From Lachnospiraceae bacterium (GTDB lineage: Bacteria; Bacillota; Clostridia; Lachnospirales; Lachnospiraceae): a DNA stretch of 61,840 nt. Position numbers and translations under genes: made by a program. A model generated the notes under the pieces. It made no database searches, was not told the DNA's origin, and was given only the letters and a program-made list of their open reading frames with translations. Where the stretch lies: positions 1 to 61,840 of the forward strand of contig JAFZOS010000004.1 of the NCBI GenBank assembly GCA_017550535.1. The letters are read 5' to 3'. Positions 3,561 through 19,756 of this stretch are shown here, in pieces (the first letter of the stretch is position 1; every line of letters starts with the position of its first letter).

Positions 3561-5327
3561 ATGAATAGTGACAGGAAAAGAACTCCAAAATATATAACGT
3601 TCGCACTCATCTTGAATACAGTCGCACTCGCTTTATCCCTTGTCGTCTACCGTCCGTTCTTTGAGACAAATGATGATGCTGTATTCTGCCTTATCGCGGA
3701 GGGTGTGCACGGGGTGCGCGAGCCGCATATTATCAGTGCCGATACGATACTCGGCCGTATCTATATGTTTCTGTATGGCATTATATCCGGCATACGATGG
3801 CACAGTGTGCTTCAGTATCTGTTCATGTTTGTCGGATATACGGCGCTTGCTTATCTTATCCAGGTGATATCTGACCCGAAAGGAGAGGGCGGCAAATGCC
3901 TGATGTGGGGAAGGATTGTTGCCGTACTCGTAAGCGCAATGACATTTTATGAATCTTATGTCTCACTCCAATTCAGTAAAACCGGTGCTATAGTATGTGC
4001 TGCCGGGTGTTTTATCCTGATGTATGTTTTAATATCGGGTAATAGGATACCATCCCGTACTTTGTATTTTATTGCCGTTATCCTGATCATATATGGCATG
4101 CTGCTTAGGTCGGCATCATTCAAACTGGTGCTTCTTTTGCTGTTTCCGGTGGGATTATATGAGATCATTGCCGTTTTCAAAAGGGAAAAACGAATATCCA
4201 AAAGCTTGCTCGGATTCGTGGTGACGGCGGTCAGCCTTTTTGCATTATCAGTGCTTTTTGGACGGTTAAACTTGATCTCTTACGATAATGATCCGGCATG
4301 GAAGGATTTCATGGCTTACCACAGTGCGGTTGTAAGGCTTGTAGATAAAAGATACGATTTTCTGGATCAAAGCAAATATGCAGATGAACTTGATAAGCTC
4401 GGAGTCAGCGCAAATGATTCTGTCATGATAATGACATGGCAGTTTGGCGATGACAATGTCTGGAGCCGGGATGAACTGCTTAAAATCGCCGGGAAAGCGC
4501 CCGAAAAGAGCTTCGGTATTGAGGATATTAAAGGACTCATACAAAGTATTTATGATGATGTGCTAATATTTAACCCATGCATTTTGGGAGTGCTCCTGTT
4601 AATGATATACAGCATTTATGTATATTTTAAGGGGAGAAGGTTCGGCAAAGCGGCTGTGATCATAAGCCAGGTTGTTGTTATTTCGGGTATATTCGTCTTT
4701 TATCGTTACAGCGGACGATGGAGTCACAGGATAGTATTTGCGGCTTTATTGGTTTTCCTGCTTGGTATGGTGTGGATGCTTGCAGAGGATAGAGGTTTAT
4801 TGCCGGTGGATGAGGCGCAAGGGGATATATCCGGCAGGGGAGATGATACCGGTGTCATTACAGGTATGATCGTATTGGTTTTAACAGCCTGCATTGCGGT
4901 TTTACTTGGCAACAGGTTTGATTATAACGACTATAAGAGGAGCGGTACGGATTATCCGGGGTTTTATGAAAGCATAAGCGGTGATAAGGAAACCCTGTAT
5001 GTTGCCGATACATTCACGTTTCAGGATGCGTATAAATATGATGTGTTCAAATCGTATGCCATGGGCAGCATGGACAATTTCGTGACTGTCGGGAGCTGGT
5101 ATCTTAATTCTCCGATAACCGATAAAATGCTTTCTGCTTACGGGTATGATAATCCGTTTGATGCTTTGGTAAAGGGAGCCGATACGGGCAATGTGATCCT
5201 TGTTGACAATATGTCTGCAAATGAGAAGCTTACTTACCTTAATGAGCATTACGGCGGGTATGAACTTGAAGAATTACCACAGAAGTTTGGATTTAAGATG
5301 TACCGTGTCGTAAATGCCGCAAAATAG
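3561..5327 (+). CDS. Polytopic membrane protein, GT-C glycosyltransferase-like
   Basis: 588 residues from the ATG at 3561, chosen because GGAG at 3551-3554 is spaced 6 nt from it; an ATG at 3549 lies upstream of that site. The protein has about ten membrane helices. A first-loop acidic motif, FFETNDDAVF (near residues 30-40), matches the position of the Asp/Glu motif of GT-C glycosyltransferases that use polyprenyl-phosphate sugars. The region after about residue 465 looks like a soluble extracytoplasmic domain (ETLYVADTFTFQDAYKYDVF). It starts 42 bp after the YfhO-family gene and probably shares its transcript. No named family is recognised with certainty; a role in envelope glycan assembly is inferred from architecture and neighbour. 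Confidence 0.55.
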   Translation: MNSDRKRTPKYITFALILNTVALALSLVVYRPFFETNDDAVFCLIAEGVHGVREPHIISADTILGRIYMFLYGIISGIRWHSVLQYLFMFVGYTALAYLIQVISDPKGEGGKCLMWGRIVAVLVSAMTFYESYVSLQFSKTGAIVCAAGCFILMYVLISGNRIPSRTLYFIAVILIIYGMLLRSASFKLVLLLLFPVGLYEIIAVFKREKRISKSLLGFVVTAVSLFALSVLFGRLNLISYDNDPAWKDFMAYHSAVVRLVDKRYDFLDQSKYADELDKLGVSANDSVMIMTWQFGDDNVWSRDELLKIAGKAPEKSFGIEDIKGLIQSIYDDVLIFNPCILGVLLLMIYSIYVYFKGRRFGKAAVIISQVVVISGIFVFYRYSGRWSHRIVFAALLVFLLGMVWMLAEDRGLLPVDEAQGDISGRGDDTGVITGMIVLVLTACIAVLLGNRFDYNDYKRSGTDYPGFYESISGDKETLYVADTFTFQDAYKYDVFKSYAMGSMDNFVTVGSWYLNSPITDKMLSAYGYDNPFDALVKGADTGNVILVDNMSANEKLTYLNEHYGGYELEELPQKFGFKMYRVVNAAK

Positions 5328-5483: not shown

Positions 5484-8400
5484 ATGGAATTAAGGAGAAG
5501 GATAGCGGGAATAGTTGCATTTACGATGATCGCGACATCGGTATTCGGAAATATTACGACGGTTTATGCTGTGGAGGATATCGGAGAGATAGGCCTGTAT
5601 GCCGATGAAATAGCGTCTCCCGAAGCAGAACATACCGTAGATGAACTGACTGCATCCGAAACAGCTGATGTTATAGATGTTGTTACTGATGCAGATGATA
5701 TAAGTGTGACGGGTGAACTGATCGGCTCGGATGCCGAAGATGGATTACCTGTATTGGGGGATAGCGGGGTAGTTGAAAAACCGGCCGCAGGAGATAAGGT
5801 CCCCAAGGAAGATAGACCCTTGATAACGCTTGACGACGGCATTACCTACAGGATCGATGACGATACTTACAGTGCATCTGTAGTGAGCTGGAACGGAAAC
5901 GGTAAAGTTATCATCCCTGCGGTAATAGATCTTAAAGGAACAGGTTATGTTTCTTCATGGCCTACAGGGGAAGATGATTATAAGCGTAAAGTAGTTGAGA
6001 TAGAAGAGAAAGCCTTCATGGAGGAGGGTGAAGAACACCGTTTAAATGAGCTTGTTATTGAGGAGAGTGACAGTTCTGTAAAACTGAAGATTGATAGCGA
6101 GGCCTTTAGCGGATGTACAAAAATAAGCTCAGTTAAGTTTCCTGAAAGAATGGAATTGATAGGGAACAAAGCCTTTTCGGGATGTATATCATTAAGCAGT
6201 GTTTCGCTTCCTGATAAACTGGATGAATTTGGCCTTTCTGTTTTTGAGGGCTGCACAACCCTGTCGGGTATAAGCATCCCCAAAAATATGGAACTTAAAA
6301 AAATAGAACTGCCTTATGATGTGAGCAGCGGTCCGTTTTCCGGTGCGGAAAATCTCAAAAATATCAGTTTTGAGACCGGTATTACCGTTATCCCGGACAA
6401 ACTGTTTGCTGCCTGTGACTCGGTAGAGAGGATTGATTTTCCTTCGCAGATGACACAGATCGGTGTACGGTCATTTATGAACTGTACCAATCTTAAAACA
6501 ATCACTATGGAGGACAAGATTACCGGTATAGGGGAAAGCGCTTTTGAAGGCACGGGCCTTACATCGGTCGATCTTTCCAGTGATCTCAAGACTATAGGCA
6601 ACAGGGCGTTTTATAATTGTCAATCGCTTTCGTCGGCTACCATTCCTGACAGTGTAAGGACAATAGGTGATTCTGCATTCAGGATCTGTAAAACACTGGA
6701 AAAAGTTGAGTTTGTGGACGGAGATACAGGTAATTACATAGGCGGAGAGATCGGACCGAGTGCTTTTCAGGAGTGCGAATCACTTAAAGAGATCGTAATT
6801 CCGAACAGTATCAAAAAGATAGGCAACGCTTCGTTTTACAAGTGTATCAATCTCAAAGAAATGGCGATTAAGGACAGGATAGACTATTTTTCCGAAGATA
6901 TCGTTATCGGGGATGATGCGTTTAATGGTTGTGAAAAGCTGGGCAAGGTTTCCATACTGTCTAAGTCTGTTTATTCCATAGGAAAATCCGCTTTCTATGA
7001 ATGTACAGCGCTTAATGATGTGACTTTGTCATCAAATAACCTTGCGATAATCGATAATTCGGCGTTTGCGAAATGCTCAAGCCTTGAATCCATCCACATG
7101 CCGGACAGCGTTACGGATATTGGCGGCAGTGTATTTGAAAACTGTACATCTTTGCGTGATGTCGGGCTTTCAAAGGGGCTTACTAATGTAGGCGCAGCGG
7201 TATTCAGAGGTGACACGGCATTAAGGGCGATAAAACTGCCTGCAAATATCAAAAATGTATATGTTTCAAGGGCGGAGGAAGGAATCTTTGCCGGATGTAC
7301 TTATCTTTTTGATATTACATTTGAAGAGGGGATAACATCCATAGCGGCTAATCTCCTGTTCGGTACCGGTTCCATCGTAAATCTGGATATTCCGGATACG
7401 GTGACCGACATAGGTGCTTGTGCTTTCCACAGCTGTACCCGTCTGCGCAAGGTAAAGATACCCGGGAAAGTAATAAGTATTGGAAATGATGCGTTTAATA
7501 ATTGCGGTAATCTTGTAAATAAAGCCGATGACGGAAGTGAGGTCATTCTTATACCTGACAGTGTAAAAGAGATAGGGAGTAACGCATTTTGTGGATGTGG
7601 AGCTCTTACGAAGATGACGCTTCCGAACGGACTTGAAGATATAGGTGCTTCGGCATTTAAAGACTGTGTCGGAATAACCGAAATACATGTGCCCGACAGC
7701 GTTAAAAAGCTGGGCGAAGGATGTTTTGAAGGCTGTTCCAGCCTTACAAAGGCAAGGCTTCCCCAAAACCTTAATATCGTTCCCAAAAGATTGTTCAAGG
7801 ATTGTGTTAAGCTGACAACTGTAAACCTGTCGGCGGTTGATCTTACAACGATTGACGAATATGCATTTAACAACTGTGATGCGCTTGTTGAACTCGGTGG
7901 AGGTTTAGGTATTGTTGATTTTACAGCCTTTAAGGTTCTTAAGGAGATAAGAAAAGGCGCATTTGAAAACTGCGATCGGATCGCTAAGTTGAAATTGTCT
8001 GCAGCAACCGATACTTTGGGAGAATATGCATTTTATTATTGCTCTAACTTAAGTGAGATAGACCTTGGAACGGGTCTGGAAATTATACCATCCTACGCGT
8101 TTGCCACAATGGCATCGTTAAAGAAGATGATAATACCCCGTAATGTTACCGAGATAAAGGAGTATGCATTTGACAGTGATGCTTCGTTTGAGGAGATTCA
8201 TATTCCCAACACAGATATAAAGATAGATCCCAAGGCATTTTCATCCTGTAGGAAGCTTACATTCTATGTGGTGAAGGATAGTCCCGCTCATGAGCAGTTG
8301 GTGGCTCAGGGTAAGGCAGATAATTGCGTTTTTGAAGTTGTATATGTTGACAGCATCGATTACGCCGAGGATGTTATTGAGATAAACCGCGATCCCAATC

Positions 8401-11201
8401 CTGCTGATCCGGCAGTGGAAGGCCGCAAAACGAAACCGGTCATCAGCATACTTCCGGTGCATTATTCCGTGGATGTTAAATACCGGTCATCCAATCCGTC
8501 AATCTTTACAGTAGATAAGGATGGTAAGATCCTCGGTATCGCAAGCGGAGAAGCGACCTTAATAGCTGAGGCACAGGCGAATCTTGAAGGTAAAAAGGCA
8601 AGGGACAGTGTAAAGATCGTGGTAAGAGTGCCTGTTAACAGTGTGAACATTCAGGAGGGAGATGCGACGCTTTATGTTGGAGATAAGCTTAGTTATACTG
8701 CAGTAATAGATCCGTCAGACGCTACCCTTAAGGATGTCACATGGTCAAGCGATAAAAAGGATGTTGCTTATGTGGACAGTAAAGGTACCGTGTATGCTAA
8801 GGCTGAAGGCACGGCGAGGATCACGGTGACCACAAAAGACGGCAACCGTACGGCGTCCCGTACGGTAACGGTTATAAAGGGTGTTGACGATCCTCCCGAA
8901 GAATGGACAACGCTTCTTAAAAAGCCATATTTTGATGGGTATGAGGAAAAGCTGGTTCATGATGTATTGCCGGGAACCAGGGTAAAGCTTAAACACGAGA
9001 TTGCCGGGGCAAGTATTTATTATACTACGGACGGAAGCATACCGACAGCTGATTTCAGGGGAAGGACAGCAGGCACCACTAAGCTTTATTCGGGACCGAT
9101 AGTCCTTAACAGGGATACAACGATAAGGGCTTTTGCTATTTGTCCGGGATACAGATACAGTGAGGATATTGAGACCACGTTCAGTGTGCCGAATGGAGCC
9201 GGTGATGTTCCCGGTGAGTTGATAAAGAAGTTGTTCGGTGATGATGTTGACAGGATCCCTTCGGGTATATGGTTTGCCTTTGAAGGAGATAACCGGTATT
9301 ACGTAAGGAACGGTTCGGATGAGATAGTGACAACGGTGAGCAGGGAGTATACTGGTAAGCCCATCACTTTCGGCGGCGGACTGTATATCTTTGACGGCCT
9401 TGACAGGCTGGTTGAAGGGAGGGACTACTCGATATCATACCAAAACAATACTAAGTATGGTGAGGCATCATCGGAGAATCCTCCTTCGGTCACCTTAAAG
9501 GGCAGGGGCAATTACAGCGGCACCACTGTATTCAAGTTTGCGATCACCAGGCTGAGGATTGACAAGGCATATCTGCTTTCGGACGTAACGGCGGAAGTGT
9601 TTATCGGCGATGAACTTAAAACGGTTGCACCTACCGTTGTATATAATGACAGCATTCTTACCGCGGGTAAGGATTATGCTGTTACATATTATAAAGGTGC
9701 GGTTTCGGAAACAAATGTCGTAAAGGATACCGATAAAGCCGAAGAAGGAAGCTATATAGCGGTCATATCCGCCAAGGACGGAAGTGCATATACGGGAACC
9801 TTAAAAGATAAGATATATATTACTGCAGTGAGCAAGCCTGCAACGGCTCCGGTACAAATGAGCAGCGTTACGGTGACTCCCGATCCTATCTCGGTTTCCT
9901 GGAGCGCTAAGGGAGTCGATGTGACAAAGCTGTTTACGGTTTCATCAGGCAGTGCTGCACCGGGTAAAGCAACGCATGGCAGTGCGACTCTTACATATGG
10001 CAAGGATTTTACGGTTGATGCCGTTGATACGACTCTGTATCCTAACTTCCCGTCTGCGGGAACCTACGTGATCATATTAAGGGGTACCGGTAATTATGCA
10101 GGCACGATACCTGCCACGCTGAAGGTGACCGGCATTACAAGTGATCAGGTCAAGGTAGCCTGCTTTAACGATAAGCCCGAGTATGTGGGAAGGGTAATGA
10201 AGCTCTCCGATCTTTATAAGGCTGACAATACTTCTTATAAGGAAGTGACTCTGTACACATCGACCGGAAAGCTTACGAAGGGTACGGATTATGATGTTGA
10301 TATGTCCGATGCGATGGCGTACGGTAAGTTTAACGTGGTGTTCAGGCTGAAGGGTAATTATGAAGGTGAGATCGTAAAGACGGTCAGCACCAAGGCCCGG
10401 AACATGAAGAACGATCCGAAGCTTACAATAACACCGGGTGTGGCAGAATATTCAAAGAGCGGAGCCATACCGGATGTATTTGTAAATTATAACGGATTGT
10501 TATTAAAGGAAGGTGTTGACTATACGCTGGCGTATAAGAATAACGTAACGATCTCGGCCAAAAAGCAGCCGACGGTAACGGTTAAGTTCAAGGGTTACTT
10601 TAAGGGCAGCGCATCTAAGGCATTTACGGTTAAAAAGGCACCTGTGACCAATTTAACTCTGTTGCTAAACGACGTTAAATACTCGGAGAAAAAGAAGGCC
10701 AAGTCATATAAGGTGCTGCCGAAAGTATATGACGGTTTGAAACAGGTGGCCAAGAAGAAGGATATCGATGGTTTCACCATAAAGGACTGCACGTTTAAGA
10801 ATGCAAAGACCGGAGCTCTTATCGGAGATACGGACGTGCTTGAACCCGGCACCATGATAGAAGTGACTTTAAGAGTGAGCGCTGCTTCGGGTGGTATGTA
10901 TGAGGGTACAGCCGATATCAAGGGTACATACCGCGTGATGGATCCTGCGAAGCTTATAAAGACCGCCAAGATAGAACTTAGGAAGGATATTGAATATTCA
11001 GGCGGAAATGAGCTGGTGATCAAGCCGTCCGACTTAAGGGTTACACTGAAGGACGGATATGAGCTTAAGTCGAATGAGTTCTCTATCGTATCCGTTACAA
11101 ACAGCCGATTTACCGGATCATCCAAGATCACGATACGCGGCGCAGGTGATTTCGGCGGCACCAAGACGAAGTCTATAAAGGTAAAGGCGGCCGGGTTGTA
11201 G
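5484..11201 (+). CDS. BspA-like leucine-rich-repeat surface protein with Big_2 and chitobiase-like domains
   Basis: 1905 residues with a GGAGGT site 7 nt before the start. A signal peptide (about 1-30, ending TTVYA) precedes an acidic linker. From about residue 170 to 935 there are some 25-30 LRR_5 (BspA-type) repeats of about 23 residues with the pattern IGxxAFxxCxxLxxVxxP. Two bacterial Ig-like Big_2 domains follow (about 950-1135; SYTAVIDPSDATLKDVTWSS). A chitobiase C-terminal-like module comes next (about 1140-1235; SIYYTTDGSIPT). The rest (1280-1905) is a series of beta domains of about 80-100 residues with recurring 'GxDYxVxY' and 'KGxGNYxGT' signatures. BspA-type LRR proteins commonly bind host proteins or other cells. 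No LPXTG signal, C-terminal helix, SLH or choline-binding repeat is visible, so release or non-covalent wall attachment is likely. Confidence 0.85.
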   Translation: MELRRRIAGIVAFTMIATSVFGNITTVYAVEDIGEIGLYADEIASPEAEHTVDELTASETADVIDVVTDADDISVTGELIGSDAEDGLPVLGDSGVVEKPAAGDKVPKEDRPLITLDDGITYRIDDDTYSASVVSWNGNGKVIIPAVIDLKGTGYVSSWPTGEDDYKRKVVEIEEKAFMEEGEEHRLNELVIEESDSSVKLKIDSEAFSGCTKISSVKFPERMELIGNKAFSGCISLSSVSLPDKLDEFGLSVFEGCTTLSGISIPKNMELKKIELPYDVSSGPFSGAENLKNISFETGITVIPDKLFAACDSVERIDFPSQMTQIGVRSFMNCTNLKTITMEDKITGIGESAFEGTGLTSVDLSSDLKTIGNRAFYNCQSLSSATIPDSVRTIGDSAFRICKTLEKVEFVDGDTGNYIGGEIGPSAFQECESLKEIVIPNSIKKIGNASFYKCINLKEMAIKDRIDYFSEDIVIGDDAFNGCEKLGKVSILSKSVYSIGKSAFYECTALNDVTLSSNNLAIIDNSAFAKCSSLESIHMPDSVTDIGGSVFENCTSLRDVGLSKGLTNVGAAVFRGDTALRAIKLPANIKNVYVSRAEEGIFAGCTYLFDITFEEGITSIAANLLFGTGSIVNLDIPDTVTDIGACAFHSCTRLRKVKIPGKVISIGNDAFNNCGNLVNKADDGSEVILIPDSVKEIGSNAFCGCGALTKMTLPNGLEDIGASAFKDCVGITEIHVPDSVKKLGEGCFEGCSSLTKARLPQNLNIVPKRLFKDCVKLTTVNLSAVDLTTIDEYAFNNCDALVELGGGLGIVDFTAFKVLKEIRKGAFENCDRIAKLKLSAATDTLGEYAFYYCSNLSEIDLGTGLEIIPSYAFATMASLKKMIIPRNVTEIKEYAFDSDASFEEIHIPNTDIKIDPKAFSSCRKLTFYVVKDSPAHEQLVAQGKADNCVFEVVYVDSIDYAEDVIEINRDPNPADPAVEGRKTKPVISILPVHYSVDVKYRSSNPSIFTVDKDGKILGIASGEATLIAEAQANLEGKKARDSVKIVVRVPVNSVNIQEGDATLYVGDKLSYTAVIDPSDATLKDVTWSSDKKDVAYVDSKGTVYAKAEGTARITVTTKDGNRTASRTVTVIKGVDDPPEEWTTLLKKPYFDGYEEKLVHDVLPGTRVKLKHEIAGASIYYTTDGSIPTADFRGRTAGTTKLYSGPIVLNRDTTIRAFAICPGYRYSEDIETTFSVPNGAGDVPGELIKKLFGDDVDRIPSGIWFAFEGDNRYYVRNGSDEIVTTVSREYTGKPITFGGGLYIFDGLDRLVEGRDYSISYQNNTKYGEASSENPPSVTLKGRGNYSGTTVFKFAITRLRIDKAYLLSDVTAEVFIGDELKTVAPTVVYNDSILTAGKDYAVTYYKGAVSETNVVKDTDKAEEGSYIAVISAKDGSAYTGTLKDKIYITAVSKPATAPVQMSSVTVTPDPISVSWSAKGVDVTKLFTVSSGSAAPGKATHGSATLTYGKDFTVDAVDTTLYPNFPSAGTYVIILRGTGNYAGTIPATLKVTGITSDQVKVACFNDKPEYVGRVMKLSDLYKADNTSYKEVTLYTSTGKLTKGTDYDVDMSDAMAYGKFNVVFRLKGNYEGEIVKTVSTKARNMKNDPKLTITPGVAEYSKSGAIPDVFVNYNGLLLKEGVDYTLAYKNNVTISAKKQPTVTVKFKGYFKGSASKAFTVKKAPVTNLTLLLNDVKYSEKKKAKSYKVLPKVYDGLKQVAKKKDIDGFTIKDCTFKNAKTGALIGDTDVLEPGTMIEVTLRVSAASGGMYEGTADIKGTYRVMDPAKLIKTAKIELRKDIEYSGGNELVIKPSDLRVTLKDGYELKSNEFSIVSVTNSRFTGSSKITIRGAGDFGGTKTKSIKVKAAGL

Positions 11202-13841: not shown

Positions 13842-14741
13842 ATGGGTGATACTACCAACCGGGGTTTTTTAGGTGTAGTAAAACTGAATTTACCATTACG
13901 GGTGGAGCGAGTTGAACTTGCTCCACTCGTTTTTGTACCGGTATTTATTATCACAATATATATAATTGCGTTTTTTGCTTCATTGATACATGTCCCTTCT
14001 AAGTTCAAGGTGGAAACAAAAGCCGCACCGACAGGCATAAAGGTAAACAATACCGTAGCACAGGAAGTAAGTACCAAAGTCGGTGATGATGACTTTGTGT
14101 ATGATCTTAAAAATATTGAAGACATGCTTCCCGAAATGAGGGAGTGGTATCAAAAAAATAACGACTGCGTAGGCTGGCTTAAGATCGACGATATGAAGAT
14201 AGACTATCCCATACTGCAGCGTAAGAGTGACGGACTGTATTACGTTACCAGAAATATCGATGAAAACGAAGACAATATGGGATCTATAGTGCTTGATTCT
14301 GATTCGGAAATAGGAACCGGACTGAAAACGCGGCAGTATAAGGACGGAACAAAGCCGAGTACAAATCTAATAATAGGCGGCCATAATATGCGCAACGGTA
14401 CCATGTTCGGTGATCTGGATAAGTTCAGGGACAAGTCCTTTACGAGTAAGCACAACATCATAAAACTCTCTTCCCTGTATGAGGAACGTGAATATGAGAT
14501 AGTGAGCGTATTCCTTTCGCAGATCTATCCCGCAGATAAAACGGATGTATTTAAGTACTACAAGTTCTATGAAGCGGACACGCAGGAAGAATTTGATGAG
14601 TTTTACAATAATATAAAAAAGCTCCAGCTGTTTGATACCGGGGTTACGGCTAAGTACGGTGATGAATTTCTGACTCTGAATACCTGTACGTATCATGTAG
14701 AAGATGGCCGTATGGTAGTTGTCGCAAAGCGTATCAGGTAG
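13842..14741 (+). CDS. Class B sortase
   Basis: 299 residues. A single N-terminal membrane segment (PLVFVPVFIITIYIIAFFAS, about 27-47) anchors an extracellular sortase fold. The catalytic triad is visible: His181 in GGHN, Cys282 in LNTCTY and Arg297 near the end (VAKRIR). The stretch CVGWLKIDDMKIDYPILQ and the long insert with a helix before the catalytic Cys are typical of class B. Sortases cut a C-terminal sorting motif and join the protein to the peptidoglycan precursor. Its nearest candidate substrate is the preceding surface protein. No strong ribosome site precedes the ATG (only AAGAG), and a terminator-like hairpin lies within codons 20-31. Confidence 0.9.
   Translation: MGDTTNRGFLGVVKLNLPLRVERVELAPLVFVPVFIITIYIIAFFASLIHVPSKFKVETKAAPTGIKVNNTVAQEVSTKVGDDDFVYDLKNIEDMLPEMREWYQKNNDCVGWLKIDDMKIDYPILQRKSDGLYYVTRNIDENEDNMGSIVLDSDSEIGTGLKTRQYKDGTKPSTNLIIGGHNMRNGTMFGDLDKFRDKSFTSKHNIIKLSSLYEEREYEIVSVFLSQIYPADKTDVFKYYKFYEADTQEEFDEFYNNIKKLQLFDTGVTAKYGDEFLTLNTCTYHVEDGRMVVVAKRIR
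13899..13934 (+). terminator. Terminator-like hairpin inside the 5' end of the sortase gene
   Basis: Thirteen bases (13899-13911) pair fully with 13917-13929, counting two G-T pairs, around the loop TTGAA. Five T follow (13930-13934). The element has the form of an intrinsic terminator and lies in codons 20-31 of the sortase reading frame, encoding the beginning of its membrane segment. It may end most transcripts of the surface protein gene and let a fraction continue into the sortase. Confidence 0.55.
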
Positions 14742-16355: not shown

Positions 16356-17279
16356 ATGAGTAAGATTATGTATATGTTCCCCGGCCAGGGCGCACAGTAC
16401 ATCGGCATGGGCAAGGCCATGTACGATGAGTTCGATAAGGCCAGGGAGATATTTGATAAGGCGAGCGCGGTAACGGGTCTTGACATCCCGGCACTGTGCT
16501 TTGAGGAAAATGATCGTATAAACATCACTGAGTACACCCAGATCGCGATGTTGGCCACCGAAGCAGCTATCTATGCAGTAATGGAGGAAAAGGGCCTTAA
16601 ATGCGATTATACGGCCGGATTGTCACTTGGCGAATACGGCGCCCTGATAGCAGCCGGAGTATTAAGCTATGAGGACGCCTTCAAGGTAGTTCGCAAAAGG
16701 GGCATCTTCATGCAGGAAGCTGTGCCGACGGGCGGAGCCATGGCGGCAGTGCTCGGAATGGATGCAGAAACGATCGAAAAGATATGCTCGCAGGCCGAAG
16801 GTTACGCAGCTATAGCAAATTACAACTGCCCCGGCCAGATAGTGATAACCGGTGAGCAGGCAGCAGTCGAAAAGGCATCGGAAGCCCTTAAGGAAGCCGG
16901 CGCAAAGAGGGTGGTTCCCCTTAATGTAAGCGGTCCGTTCCACTCAAAGATGCTCGTTCCCGCCGGTGAGAAACTGGGCGCGGTCATAGATGAAGTTACT
17001 ATAGGAGATGTCAGGGTTCCTTACGTTTCGAATGTCACGGCACAATTGGTGACTGATTCGGTCAATATCAAGGATCTTCTGGTAAAGCAGATATCTTCAT
17101 CCGTTCGCTGGCAGCAGACTATCGAACTCATGCTTGATGAAGGCGTTGATACCTTCGTTGAGATAGGCCCCGGAAAGACACTTACGGGCTTTATGAGAAA
17201 GATCAATAAAGAAGGTAAGGAAATACAGGTATATCATATAGAAAATCCCGAGGAGCTTAAAGCATATGTTGAAAGATAA
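16356..17279 (+). CDS. fabD: Malonyl-CoA:ACP transacylase
   Basis: 307 residues. It moves the malonyl group from CoA to ACP to supply the elongation steps. The opening MYMFPGQGAQYIGMG, the nucleophile Ser90 in GLSLGEY and His196 in SGPFHSKM are all family hallmarks; DTFVEIGPGKTLTGF lies near the end. AAGGAGACACT precedes the start. A 165-bp gap separates it from fabK; this gap holds only a 35-codon open frame with no clear support. The 3' end overlaps fabG by 14 bp, which indicates translational coupling. Confidence 0.97.
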   Translation: MSKIMYMFPGQGAQYIGMGKAMYDEFDKAREIFDKASAVTGLDIPALCFEENDRINITEYTQIAMLATEAAIYAVMEEKGLKCDYTAGLSLGEYGALIAAGVLSYEDAFKVVRKRGIFMQEAVPTGGAMAAVLGMDAETIEKICSQAEGYAAIANYNCPGQIVITGEQAAVEKASEALKEAGAKRVVPLNVSGPFHSKMLVPAGEKLGAVIDEVTIGDVRVPYVSNVTAQLVTDSVNIKDLLVKQISSSVRWQQTIELMLDEGVDTFVEIGPGKTLTGFMRKINKEGKEIQVYHIENPEELKAYVER

Positions 17280-18006
17280 GGTAGCCCTTGTAACAGGGGC
17301 ATCACGTGGAATCGGTGCCGAAGTGGCCAAAACACTTGCAGGACACGGAGCCTTTGTATATGTGAATTATAACGGATCGAAGTCACGCGCCGATGAGGTC
17401 GTTGACGAGATCGTTAAGGCAGGAGGCGCCGCAGAGGCTATACAGTGCGATGTGGCTGATTTTGATTCTTGCAAGGAAATGATCGATAAGATCATCGCTG
17501 ATAAGGGACGGCTTGATATACTCGTAAACAACGCAGGTATCACAAGGGACGATCTCCTTATGAAGATGAGCGAGGAAGCCTTTGACGCGGTCATAAGCAC
17601 GAACCTTAAGGGGTGCTTTAATACGATAAGGCATGCATCAAGGTATCTGCTCAAACAGAGAAGCGGTAAGATAATCAATATGTCGTCGGTATCGGGCGTG
17701 ATGGGTAATGCCGGACAGGCTAATTACTCTGCTGCAAAGGCGGGCGTTGTGGGCCTTACAAAGAGCGTTGCAAAGGAGCTTTCCAGCAGGGGCATTAACT
17801 GCAATGCGATAGCGCCCGGGTTTATTGAGACCGAGATGACTGCAGCCATGACCGACAAGGCTAAGGAAGCGACTATCGCTATGATACCGCTTGGCAGGAC
17901 CGGCAAGGTTTCGGACATTGCAGGCGCAGTACTTTTTCTTGCGTCGGATATGTCGGATTATATCACCGGCCAGGTGTTGAGTGTAGATGGTGGGATGTGT
18001 ATATAA
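17266..18006 (+). CDS. fabG: 3-oxoacyl-[acyl-carrier-protein] reductase
   Basis: 246 residues, an SDR-family NADPH-dependent reductase that converts 3-oxoacyl-ACP to 3-hydroxyacyl-ACP. Visible features are the nucleotide-binding GASRGIG, the NNAG motif, and the catalytic Ser141 (MSSVSG), Tyr154 and Lys158 (NYSAAK). The C-terminus ends GQVLSVDGGMCI, as is typical. It starts within the last codons of fabD. A 508-bp repeat-filled gap, unusual for this operon type, follows before fabF. Confidence 0.97.
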   Translation: MLKDKVALVTGASRGIGAEVAKTLAGHGAFVYVNYNGSKSRADEVVDEIVKAGGAAEAIQCDVADFDSCKEMIDKIIADKGRLDILVNNAGITRDDLLMKMSEEAFDAVISTNLKGCFNTIRHASRYLLKQRSGKIINMSSVSGVMGNAGQANYSAAKAGVVGLTKSVAKELSSRGINCNAIAPGFIETEMTAAMTDKAKEATIAMIPLGRTGKVSDIAGAVLFLASDMSDYITGQVLSVDGGMCI

Positions 18007-18022
18007 ACTCCGCCAAACGCGG

Positions 18023-18092
18023 CCCGGAAAACAAAGACTTGAAAACAAAGGCCTGAAAACAAAGCCCGGAAAACAAAGCCCTGAAAACACGG
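18023..18092 (+). repeat. Five tandem 14-bp repeats after fabG
   Basis: Units at 18023, 18037, 18051, 18065 and 18079, each close to CCCGGAAAACAAAG, with variation mostly in the first four bases (ACTT, GCCT, CCCT). The CCGGGAAAAACAAAG core recurs once in most units of the adjacent 63-bp array, which suggests that the two arrays are related. Confidence 0.85.
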
Positions 18093-18096
18093 CCCG

Positions 18097-18475
18097 GAGT
18101 CATACTAAAACGGGAAAAAGCCGTGTTTAGTATGACAAATCCGGGAAAAATAAAGGCCTGAGTCATACTAAAACGGGAAAAAGCCGGGTTTAGTATGAAA
18201 AATCCGGGAAAAACAAAGCGCGGAGTCATACTAAAACAGGAAAAAGCCGTGTTTAGTATCAAAATTTCGGGGAAAACGAAGCGCGGAGTCATACTAAAAC
18301 AAGAAAATACCGGGTTTAGTATGACAAATCCGGGGAAAACAAAGCGCGGAATCATACTAAAACGGGAAAAAGCCGGGTTTAGTATGAAAAATCCGGGAAA
18401 AACAAAGCGCGGAGTCATACTAAAACAGGAAAAAGCCGTGTTTAGTATGACAAATCCGGGAAAAACGAAATCTGG
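18097..18475 (+). repeat. Six 63-bp tandem units, each with a CATACTAAA/TTTAGTATG stem
   Basis: CATACTAAA occurs at 18101, 18164, 18227, 18290, 18353 and 18416, an exact 63-bp spacing. The matching TTTAGTATG occurs at 18126, 18189, 18252 (last base C), 18315, 18378 and 18441. Within a unit the arms are 16 nt apart. Between units, TTTAGTATGAC can also pair with the following GTCATACTAAA (11 bp in the first junction) over a loop of about 25 nt, so two mutually exclusive folds exist. Because 63 is a multiple of three, both strands show long open frames; these are taken as by-products. The units are not separated by unique spacers. Together with the 14-bp repeats this fills the 18007-18514 gap. 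Confidence 0.92.
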
Positions 18476-18514
18476 TAGGTAAAACCAGGAATAAAAGAAA
18501 GACGAGGAAATACG

Positions 18515-19756
18515 ATGAGTAAAAAGCGTGTAGTGGTTACCGGGATGGGGGCGATAACCCCGATCGGCAACAGTGTAAATGAGTTCTGGAGCTCGGTTAA
18601 GGAAGGAAAGCTGGGTTTCGGTCCTATAACCCAGTTTGACACTACTGATTTCAAGTGCCATATAGCGGCAGAGGTCAAGGACTTTGACGCAAAGAACTAT
18701 ATGGATTTTAAGGCCGCCAGGCGTATGGAACTGTTTTCGCAGTATGCAATGGCCGCATCAAAGGAAGCAATTGAGGATGCCGGCATAGATATGACGCAGG
18801 AGGATCCCTACCGTGTGGGATGTGCCATCGGCTCGGGTATCGGAAGTCTCCAAAGCGTTGAGCGTGAGCATTCAAGGCTCCTTGAGAAAGGCCCTGGTAA
18901 GATAAATCCGCTGTTTATCCCGATGCTTATCGGAAACATGGCCGCAGGCAATGTTTCCATTGCTTTCGGGCTTAAGGGAAAGAGCATAGATGTAGTTACC
19001 GCATGTGCGACCGGAACAAACAGTATCGGTGAGGCATTAAGGACCATCCAGTATGGGGATGCGGATATCATGGTGGCAGGAGGCTGCGAAGGATCGATAT
19101 CACCTACCGGTGTTGCAGGCTTTATCGCACTTACAGCACTCTCAACCGTTGACGATCCGGAGAAATGTTCACTGCCCTTTGATAAGAATCGCAGCGGTTT
19201 CGTAATGGGCGAGGGCGCCGGCATTGTGATCCTTGAGGAACTTGAACACGCAAAGGCAAGGGGGGCAAAGATTTATGCCGAACTTACCGGCTATGGATGC
19301 TCGTCGGATGCATTCCATATCACAAGCCCTGCCGAGGATGGTGCAGGCGCGTCGGCAGCGATGCTTAACGCTCTTAAGGACGGCGGTGTTTCCCCGGATG
19401 AGCTTACCTATATTAACGCGCACGGAACGGGCACCCATCATAACGACCTGTTCGAGACACGTGCCATAAAGCTTGCCTTCGGTGATCATGCGAAGGATAT
19501 AAAGGTAAATTCCACAAAATCAATGATAGGACACCTCCTCGGTGCCGCAGGCGCAGTAGAGTTCATCACCTGTGTCAAGGAGATCGAGGAAGGTTATATA
19601 CATAAGACGGCAGGCTATACGACGCCTGACGATGAAATGGATCTTGATTACTGTAAGGAAGCGTATGAGAACGTCGATCTTAAGCACGCACTGAGCAACT
19701 CGCTCGGCTTCGGCGGCCACAACGCATCCCTGCTTGTTTCAAAATATGAGGTTTAA
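18515..19756 (+). CDS. fabF: 3-oxoacyl-[acyl-carrier-protein] synthase II
   Basis: 413 residues. FabF condenses malonyl-ACP with acyl-ACP, extending the chain by two carbons. The catalytic Cys164 (TACATGTNS), His303 ([11 protein letters not shown]) and His340 (GHLLGAAGA) sit at the canonical positions, and [13 protein letters not shown] ends the protein. GAGGAAAT precedes the ATG. The gene lies immediately after the 63-bp repeat array, so its translation or mRNA level may depend on the folding of that array. The fabZ start is 2 bp past its stop. Confidence 0.97.

Follow-up and report, generated by a model that had tools for sequence, protein, structure and literature searches.

A tandem hairpin array at a 63-bp period between fabG and fabF, and its relatives in Lachnospiraceae

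The DNA analysed here (the window, 61,840 nucleotides of a Lachnospiraceae contig) carries, between the fatty-acid synthesis genes fabG and fabF, six tandem hairpin units at an exact 63-bp period, and this array belongs to a family of such arrays that is dispersed in genomes and restricted to one clade. The family combines a fixed spacing with covarying arms, unpaired parts that are purine-rich along the direction of transcription of the flanking genes, and a preference for gene ends and operon junctions. Because similar arrays adjoin many unrelated genes in gut and rumen relatives, a general, probably transcribed, hairpin element is more likely than a fatty-acid switch. The explanation that we favour, tentatively and from sequence comparison, is a transcribed REP/BIME-like hairpin array that may cap or insulate mRNA segments.

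The array and its operon

The array lies in a run of genes comprising acpP, fabK-like, fabD, fabG, fabF, fabZ, accDA and fabH (names from Pfam matches and gene order). The features of the fabG-fabF junction are as follows.

17266-18006, plus strand: fabG, 5' neighbour of the array (Pfam match)
18022-18089, plus strand: 14-bp tandem repeat GCCCTGAAAACAAA, immediately 5' of the array (TRF)
18084-18466, plus strand: tandem hairpin array, period 63, six units (TRF and repeat search)
18099-18136, plus strand: hairpin unit 1, 11 of 11 positions pair
18162-18199, plus strand: hairpin unit 2, minus one outer pair
18225-18262, plus strand: hairpin unit 3, minus two outer pairs, right arm TTTAGTATC..
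18288-18325, plus strand: hairpin unit 4, 11 of 11 positions pair
18351-18388, plus strand: hairpin unit 5, minus one outer pair
18414-18451, plus strand: hairpin unit 6, 11 of 11 positions pair
18471-18481, plus strand: TCTGGTAGGTA, like the right arm of TACCTACTAAA-type arrays in relatives (by eye)
18515-19756, plus strand: fabF, 3' neighbour of the array (Pfam match)

TRF gave 6.1 copies with 88% matches and 0% indels, and a repeat search of the window gave five successive spacings, each exactly 63. Each unit consists of an 11-nt arm, at which the unit coordinates above begin, a 16-nt loop and an 11-nt inverted arm (GTCATACTAAA/TTTAGTATGAC, with minor variation between units). The 11 occurrences of CATACTAAA over both strands of the window all fall inside 18101-18449, and shuffles expect 0.48. 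A sequence-only reading of the same DNA had described six units with invariant 63-bp spacing, inverted arms and 16-nt loops in the fabG-fabF gap, all of which is borne out by TRF, the repeat search and unit-by-unit pairing. The adjoining 14-bp repeat looks, by eye, like the linker of the 63-bp unit, and TCTGGTAGGTA is possibly a remnant of an older array, or a chance resemblance.

Folded as RNA, the array has a z-score of -11.75, and none of 100 shuffles was equally stable. Since its arms are identical and inverted, pairing within a unit and pairing with the neighbouring unit are both geometrically possible, and to this extent the earlier proposal of two exclusive folds follows; computed sense-strand ensembles give within-unit stems a mean probability of 0.54 and neighbour-unit stems only 0.10 (antisense, 0.71 and 0.05). 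Nothing beyond the identity of the arms favours the alternative-fold mRNA switch that had been suggested on this basis.

Between 17900 and 18600 we found no promoter-like sites and no sense-strand terminator-like sites. A Rho-independent terminator (GC-rich stem plus T-tract on the sense strand) was rejected, as the two terminator-like sites in this region are both on the minus strand. Six weak Rfam 15 matches in the same region reach 18.3 bits at best against a gathering score of 90, and thus no known RNA family matches there at gathering score. Upstream of the operon, the window encodes a sortase (Pfam; 13842-14741) and, at 5484-11201, a large protein whose repeats look leucine-rich-like by eye.

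Related arrays in the genus and the family

The DNA of the array matches three further places in its own genome. Elsewhere in this genome, arrays that share its arms and its period are found at thl-crt, beside a PPDK-like gene, beside a MATE-like gene and at other sites (genes named by eye). A two-unit covariance model was built from 29 segments chosen from 31; one array from G003 with unlike arms and one from G028 whose second unit is aberrant were left out of the alignment. At E 0.001 it matches 11 of 37 genus genomes, the window's own included, with no match in the other 26; the match in G035 is its only one, and a one-unit model finds nothing there at E 0.01. We examined 46 array regions with their flanks, the window included, recognising flanking genes by eye from translations of ORFs taken by a simple longest-ORF picker and setting array limits by hand. 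The neighbours include thiolase, crotonase, EF-Tu, alanyl-tRNA synthetase, PPDK-like, MATE-like and many other genes. Arm types are mostly species-specific (mixed in G002, G003 and G036), and solitary hairpin units are also present. The fatty-acid-specific role first proposed for the array does not survive the recurrence of the same arms and period at unrelated loci, here and in relatives. Unit copies scattered at random sites had been named as evidence against that proposal; the copies are indeed scattered, but their sites do not look random, being mostly gene ends and operon junctions.

Placed by hand, 33 of the 46 regions are co-directional or have one visible flank, 10 lie between convergent ORFs, two between divergent ORFs and one is unclear. 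Three convergent-ORF regions in G003 each contain two arrays in opposite orientation; both ORFs end near the array in L224 (79 and 88 nt), and in L222 and L223 the distance to the left ORF is 304 and 508 nt. By eye, these three regions and L227, also in G003, are bordered by a second repeated element rich in GGGACCACAGAACCGTCCCC, and similar sequence occurs 3' of fabF in G014 (L074). Another kind of 63-bp tandem repeat (TACTAAAGGTCAGGGG...) is present at three places in the single genome G239 (L049, L058, L062).

The orthologous junction was compared in relatives. Of the 37 genus genomes 12 yielded a FabF match, and 10 of these had a readable fabG-fabF gap (G021 and G032 did not). Besides the array of the window's own genome, G026 has a full four-unit array of unlike sequence and TACCTACTAAA arm type, G003 has two degenerate units, and the remaining seven (G009, G011, G012, G013, G014, G027 and G036) have no array. 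These last include the nearest relative by FabF, G014 (91% identity; genome 88% complete), whose FabF match (L074) contains one internal TGA, perhaps an assembly error. Arrays at thl-crt are common to four species (the window's own genome, G009, G026 and G036), the number of units ranging from 2 to 11 and the arms differing. The site of an array can thus be the same between genomes while arms, linkers and copy number differ. In the G026 operon (L240) a solitary unit lies between the fabZ-like and accDA genes (5097-5133), and another array separates accDA from fabH (6869-7098). The sequence-only reading had looked to this gap for copy-number variation and arm covariation; copy number and sequence do vary, and arms covary across the array family, but 7 of 10 readable gaps lack an array altogether.

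Among 45 arrays of the genus with a measurable interval the modal period is 63 in 38, 64 in three, and 61, 62, 70 and 74 in one each; the value of 70 stems from one spurious unit in an array otherwise spaced at 63, and the interval counts contain a few spurious values (59, 60, 70, 71). The period is constant although loop size differs, 18 of the period-63 arrays having loops of 15 nt and 20 having loops of 16 nt.

The inner arm core TACTAAA is largely kept and the outer pairs covary. One outer pair, over 58 units, is C-G in 36, A-U in 10, G-U in nine, G-C in three and unpaired in none. Cells changed on both sides number 65 in the 29 two-unit segments, against 25.8 in shuffles, and 72 in the 58 units, against 28.0, with none of 500 shuffles as high in either case; these shuffles ignore the relatedness of the sequences. 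A count of the pairs that show any both-sided change is less distinctive, 60 of 500 shuffles (29 segments) and 65 of 500 (58 units) reaching as high a value. Shifting the partner strand by 1-3 columns reduces pairing in the 58 units from 86.7% to 28-44%, percentages that lean towards structure because the units were selected partly for pairing (by a pairing-inclusive score, and only where 6 or more of the 11 pairs were Watson-Crick).

Beyond the genus, an exact TACTAAA triple at period 63 occurs in 101 stretches of an 84,980-species collection. Among 80 of these, 63-bp repeats containing TACTAAA/TTTAGTA hairpins (loop size about 15-17 nt) were seen in Lachnospiraceae records only, several other Lachnospiraceae records being without them. 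Records from other phyla (L093 from Nostoc, L133, L136, L157) have other 8-12-nt palindromes in a 63-bp repeat; hairpin-bearing 63-bp repeats as such extend outside Lachnospiraceae. With stricter filters the two-unit model matches 12 of 397 family genomes, including the window's own. Six other genera (G294, G138, G100, G284, G450, G370) have between them nine arrays at a 53-bp period, and further periods in the family are 55 (G459), 62 (G147), 64 (G350, detected by the scan described next) and 65 (three G370 arrays), with arms of other sequence. A scan at periods 48-78 gave matches in 37 of the 397 genomes; its single rows are mostly chance, because a backward control matches many too. Among the matches listed, those that are palindromic arrays by eye come from G294, G138 and G450 (53), G370 (53 and 65), G000 and G466 (63) and G350 (64), with none at periods between 54 and 62, a gap that suggests a one-turn step, although common descent could look identical. 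Several other matches listed are CRISPR-like by eye. CRISPR-like arrays with TACTAAA in the repeat were also seen (L048, L296, L301 and L315, in G262, G355 and G349), the repeat of G262 being, by eye, presumably Cas12a-like.

Strand asymmetry and candidate roles

On the strand of the flanking genes, purines make up 69% of loops and 70% of linkers, but 53% of arms, compared with 53% in 178 ORFs and 54% in 35 co-directional gaps without arrays. This purine richness is seen in 31 of the 32 arrays whose sense strand was assigned (binomial 1.5e-8, treating arrays as independent though many are related); the assignments were made manually, in nine cases from a single visible flank. Most arrays examined in other genera show the same sense purine tendency, opposed by G100 and slightly by G350 and G138:C4. 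The asymmetry points to selection tied to transcription. Folding is neutral by comparison: over the 32 arrays mean stem probability is 0.39 sense and 0.38 antisense (Wilcoxon p 0.90), and folding energies do not separate the strands (p 0.14). On the sense strand G-U changes show a weak excess over A-C changes, 40 to 25 (p 0.08), or 56 to 36 with inner pairs included (p 0.047).

We suggest that the array is transcribed together with its upstream gene, which, like each functional step that follows, we infer from these patterns. Of the roles raised in the sequence-only reading, the mRNA stability block is the one closest to this account. The transcript would be a string of ~11-bp stems with purine-rich loops and linkers. 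Such stems could block the run-back of 3'-5' exonucleases at operon junctions and gene ends, and perhaps the entry of Rho or RNase too, so that the stability of the upstream segment (here acpP-fabG) would be kept separate from that of the downstream segment (fabF-fabH). Excerpts of PMC5927463 report that internal 3' hairpins protect operon segments in E. coli. An RNA-level reading is attractive because the unpaired parts are strand-asymmetric along transcription, the stems covary and the arrays are mostly at gene ends. It is open to doubt because the folding test is neutral and because a purely RNA role leaves the constant period unexplained; the stems of the fabG-fabF array itself, moreover, are stronger antisense (0.71) than sense (0.54).

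That the arrays are selfish or neutral palindromes of MITE or REP kind, growing by tandem duplication and tolerated by the host at gene ends without benefiting it, seems to us somewhat unlikely, albeit with several observations in favour. The distribution is patchy (11 of 37 genus genomes match and 26 are without a match at E 0.001), presence and copy number vary at orthologous gaps, arm types are largely species-specific apart from the mixtures already mentioned, and solitary units occur. No mobilising enzyme emerges: the Y1 transposase domain, a search for which pools IS200 with RAYT, occurs in 7 of the 11 carrier genomes and in 11 of the 26 non-carriers (Fisher p 0.30), and 14 stretches around 11 Y1 genes, six of these genes in carriers, contain no unit. 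Arrays at thl-crt that are common to four species also count against it, and covariation and spacing kept despite divergence suggest constraint.

The fixed period would find a natural place in a DNA-level element, in which phased sites for binding or supercoiling (by a nucleoid protein, gyrase or cruciform formation) depend on helical spacing, with orientation secondary; on balance we consider this unlikely. The period is close to 6 x 10.5 bp and is modal in 38 of 45 genus arrays with loops of either 15 or 16 nt, and other spacings are near whole turns as well (73-74 in L221 and one interval of 73 in L237; 105-106 in L243, L244 and L246; 116 in L245; 53 bp in the nine arrays of six other genera). 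Periods of 55, 62, 64 and 65 bp also occur, though, with a few of 61, 62 and 64 within the genus, and the facing arrays of G003 are 81-82 bp apart. An exploratory Rayleigh test on six hand-picked intervals, 81.5 included, gave p 0.015 at 10.5 bp, 0.009 at 11 and 0.17 at 10, and genus-level vector lengths are alike (0.79-0.86) from 9.5 to 11.5 bp. The few period classes could come from common descent, arm centres ~2.5 turns apart are unlike an ordinary dimer operator, and the strand asymmetry is left unexplained.

A site or titration array for a fatty-acid-responsive, FapR-like regulator, as the sequence-only reading had also proposed, is very improbable. Its appeal lay in the half-sites TTAGTA/TACTAA, which we take to resemble FapR operators, but the inverted half-sites are 16 nt apart, arm types change between species and the arrays adjoin many unrelated genes. 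A FapR profile search of the 37 genus genomes gave none above cut-off (weak sub-threshold matches in G013, G015 and G019; 1 of 14 control genomes above cut-off) and no match whatever in the window's own genome, and the operator reading was rejected on this absence of FapR. A protein-coding 21-residue repeat (63 = 3 x 21), such as the open 232-codon antisense frame at 17963-18661, can be dismissed, as that frame has no Pfam match, open frames in 31 arrays (sense in 7, antisense in 19) are spread over all frames, and stop codons are scarce on pyrimidine-rich strands.

Comparison with known repeats and significance

The transcribed hairpin array that we favour would act in the manner of REP/BIME elements or of the hairpins that protect operon segments, yet it lacks defining features of RAYT-associated REPs. 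Like these, judging from the portion of PMC2817692 available, the arrays are short extragenic palindromes, clustered, dispersed in the genome and species-specific in sequence. They differ in their 15-16-nt loops and AT-rich stems and in running head-to-tail at a fixed period, REPs alternating in orientation according to the same partial text. The GT(A/G)G head described there lies outside the stem, whereas in the consensus AAATACCTACTAAA..TTTAGTAGGTAAA GTAG falls within it, and GTAG is absent from the arms of the window's own genome. Association with RAYT was likewise rejected on the Y1_Tnp distribution and the absence of units near the Y1 genes searched.

The CGTC-tagged REPs of PMC3733652, as excerpted, are also palindromic repeats without a dedicated transposase, but they carry a CGTC tag, have loops of 4-5 and mostly form HH dimers. 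The malE-malF type of E. coli hairpin (PMC5927463, in part) resembles the action proposed here, in which a boundary hairpin shields upstream mRNA; it was seen by RNA sequencing, whereas the present array is tandem and known from genome sequence. CRISPR arrays have a similar period and an inverted-repeat element, but this assignment was rejected, as there are no unique spacers and the whole 63-bp unit repeats with 88% matches. The words Firmicutes, Clostridi and Lachnospir do not appear in the partial text of PMC3733652, nor Lachnospir in that of PMC12306157, and the open-access literature searched yielded no description of such arrays.

A bolder proposal, which we regard as doubtful, is that these arrays form a Lachnospiraceae class of palindromic arrays in which the arms drift by lineage while the stem, the loop size and a period quantised by helical turns (~53, 63 and 73.5 bp) are kept. 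Such a pattern would imply that a factor evolving along with the arrays recognises the phased units at operon junctions, whether on DNA, on RNA as it leaves the polymerase, or on both. Work on REPs, to judge from the partial texts at hand, mainly concerns RAYT transposases and Proteobacteria. If a common gut family has a class of its own, with fixed spacing and covarying arms, this would be a second, independent system for asking what such palindromes do, and one that would bear on butyrate and fatty-acid operons. The natural presence and absence of arrays at orthologous junctions makes an effect on expression testable by comparison.
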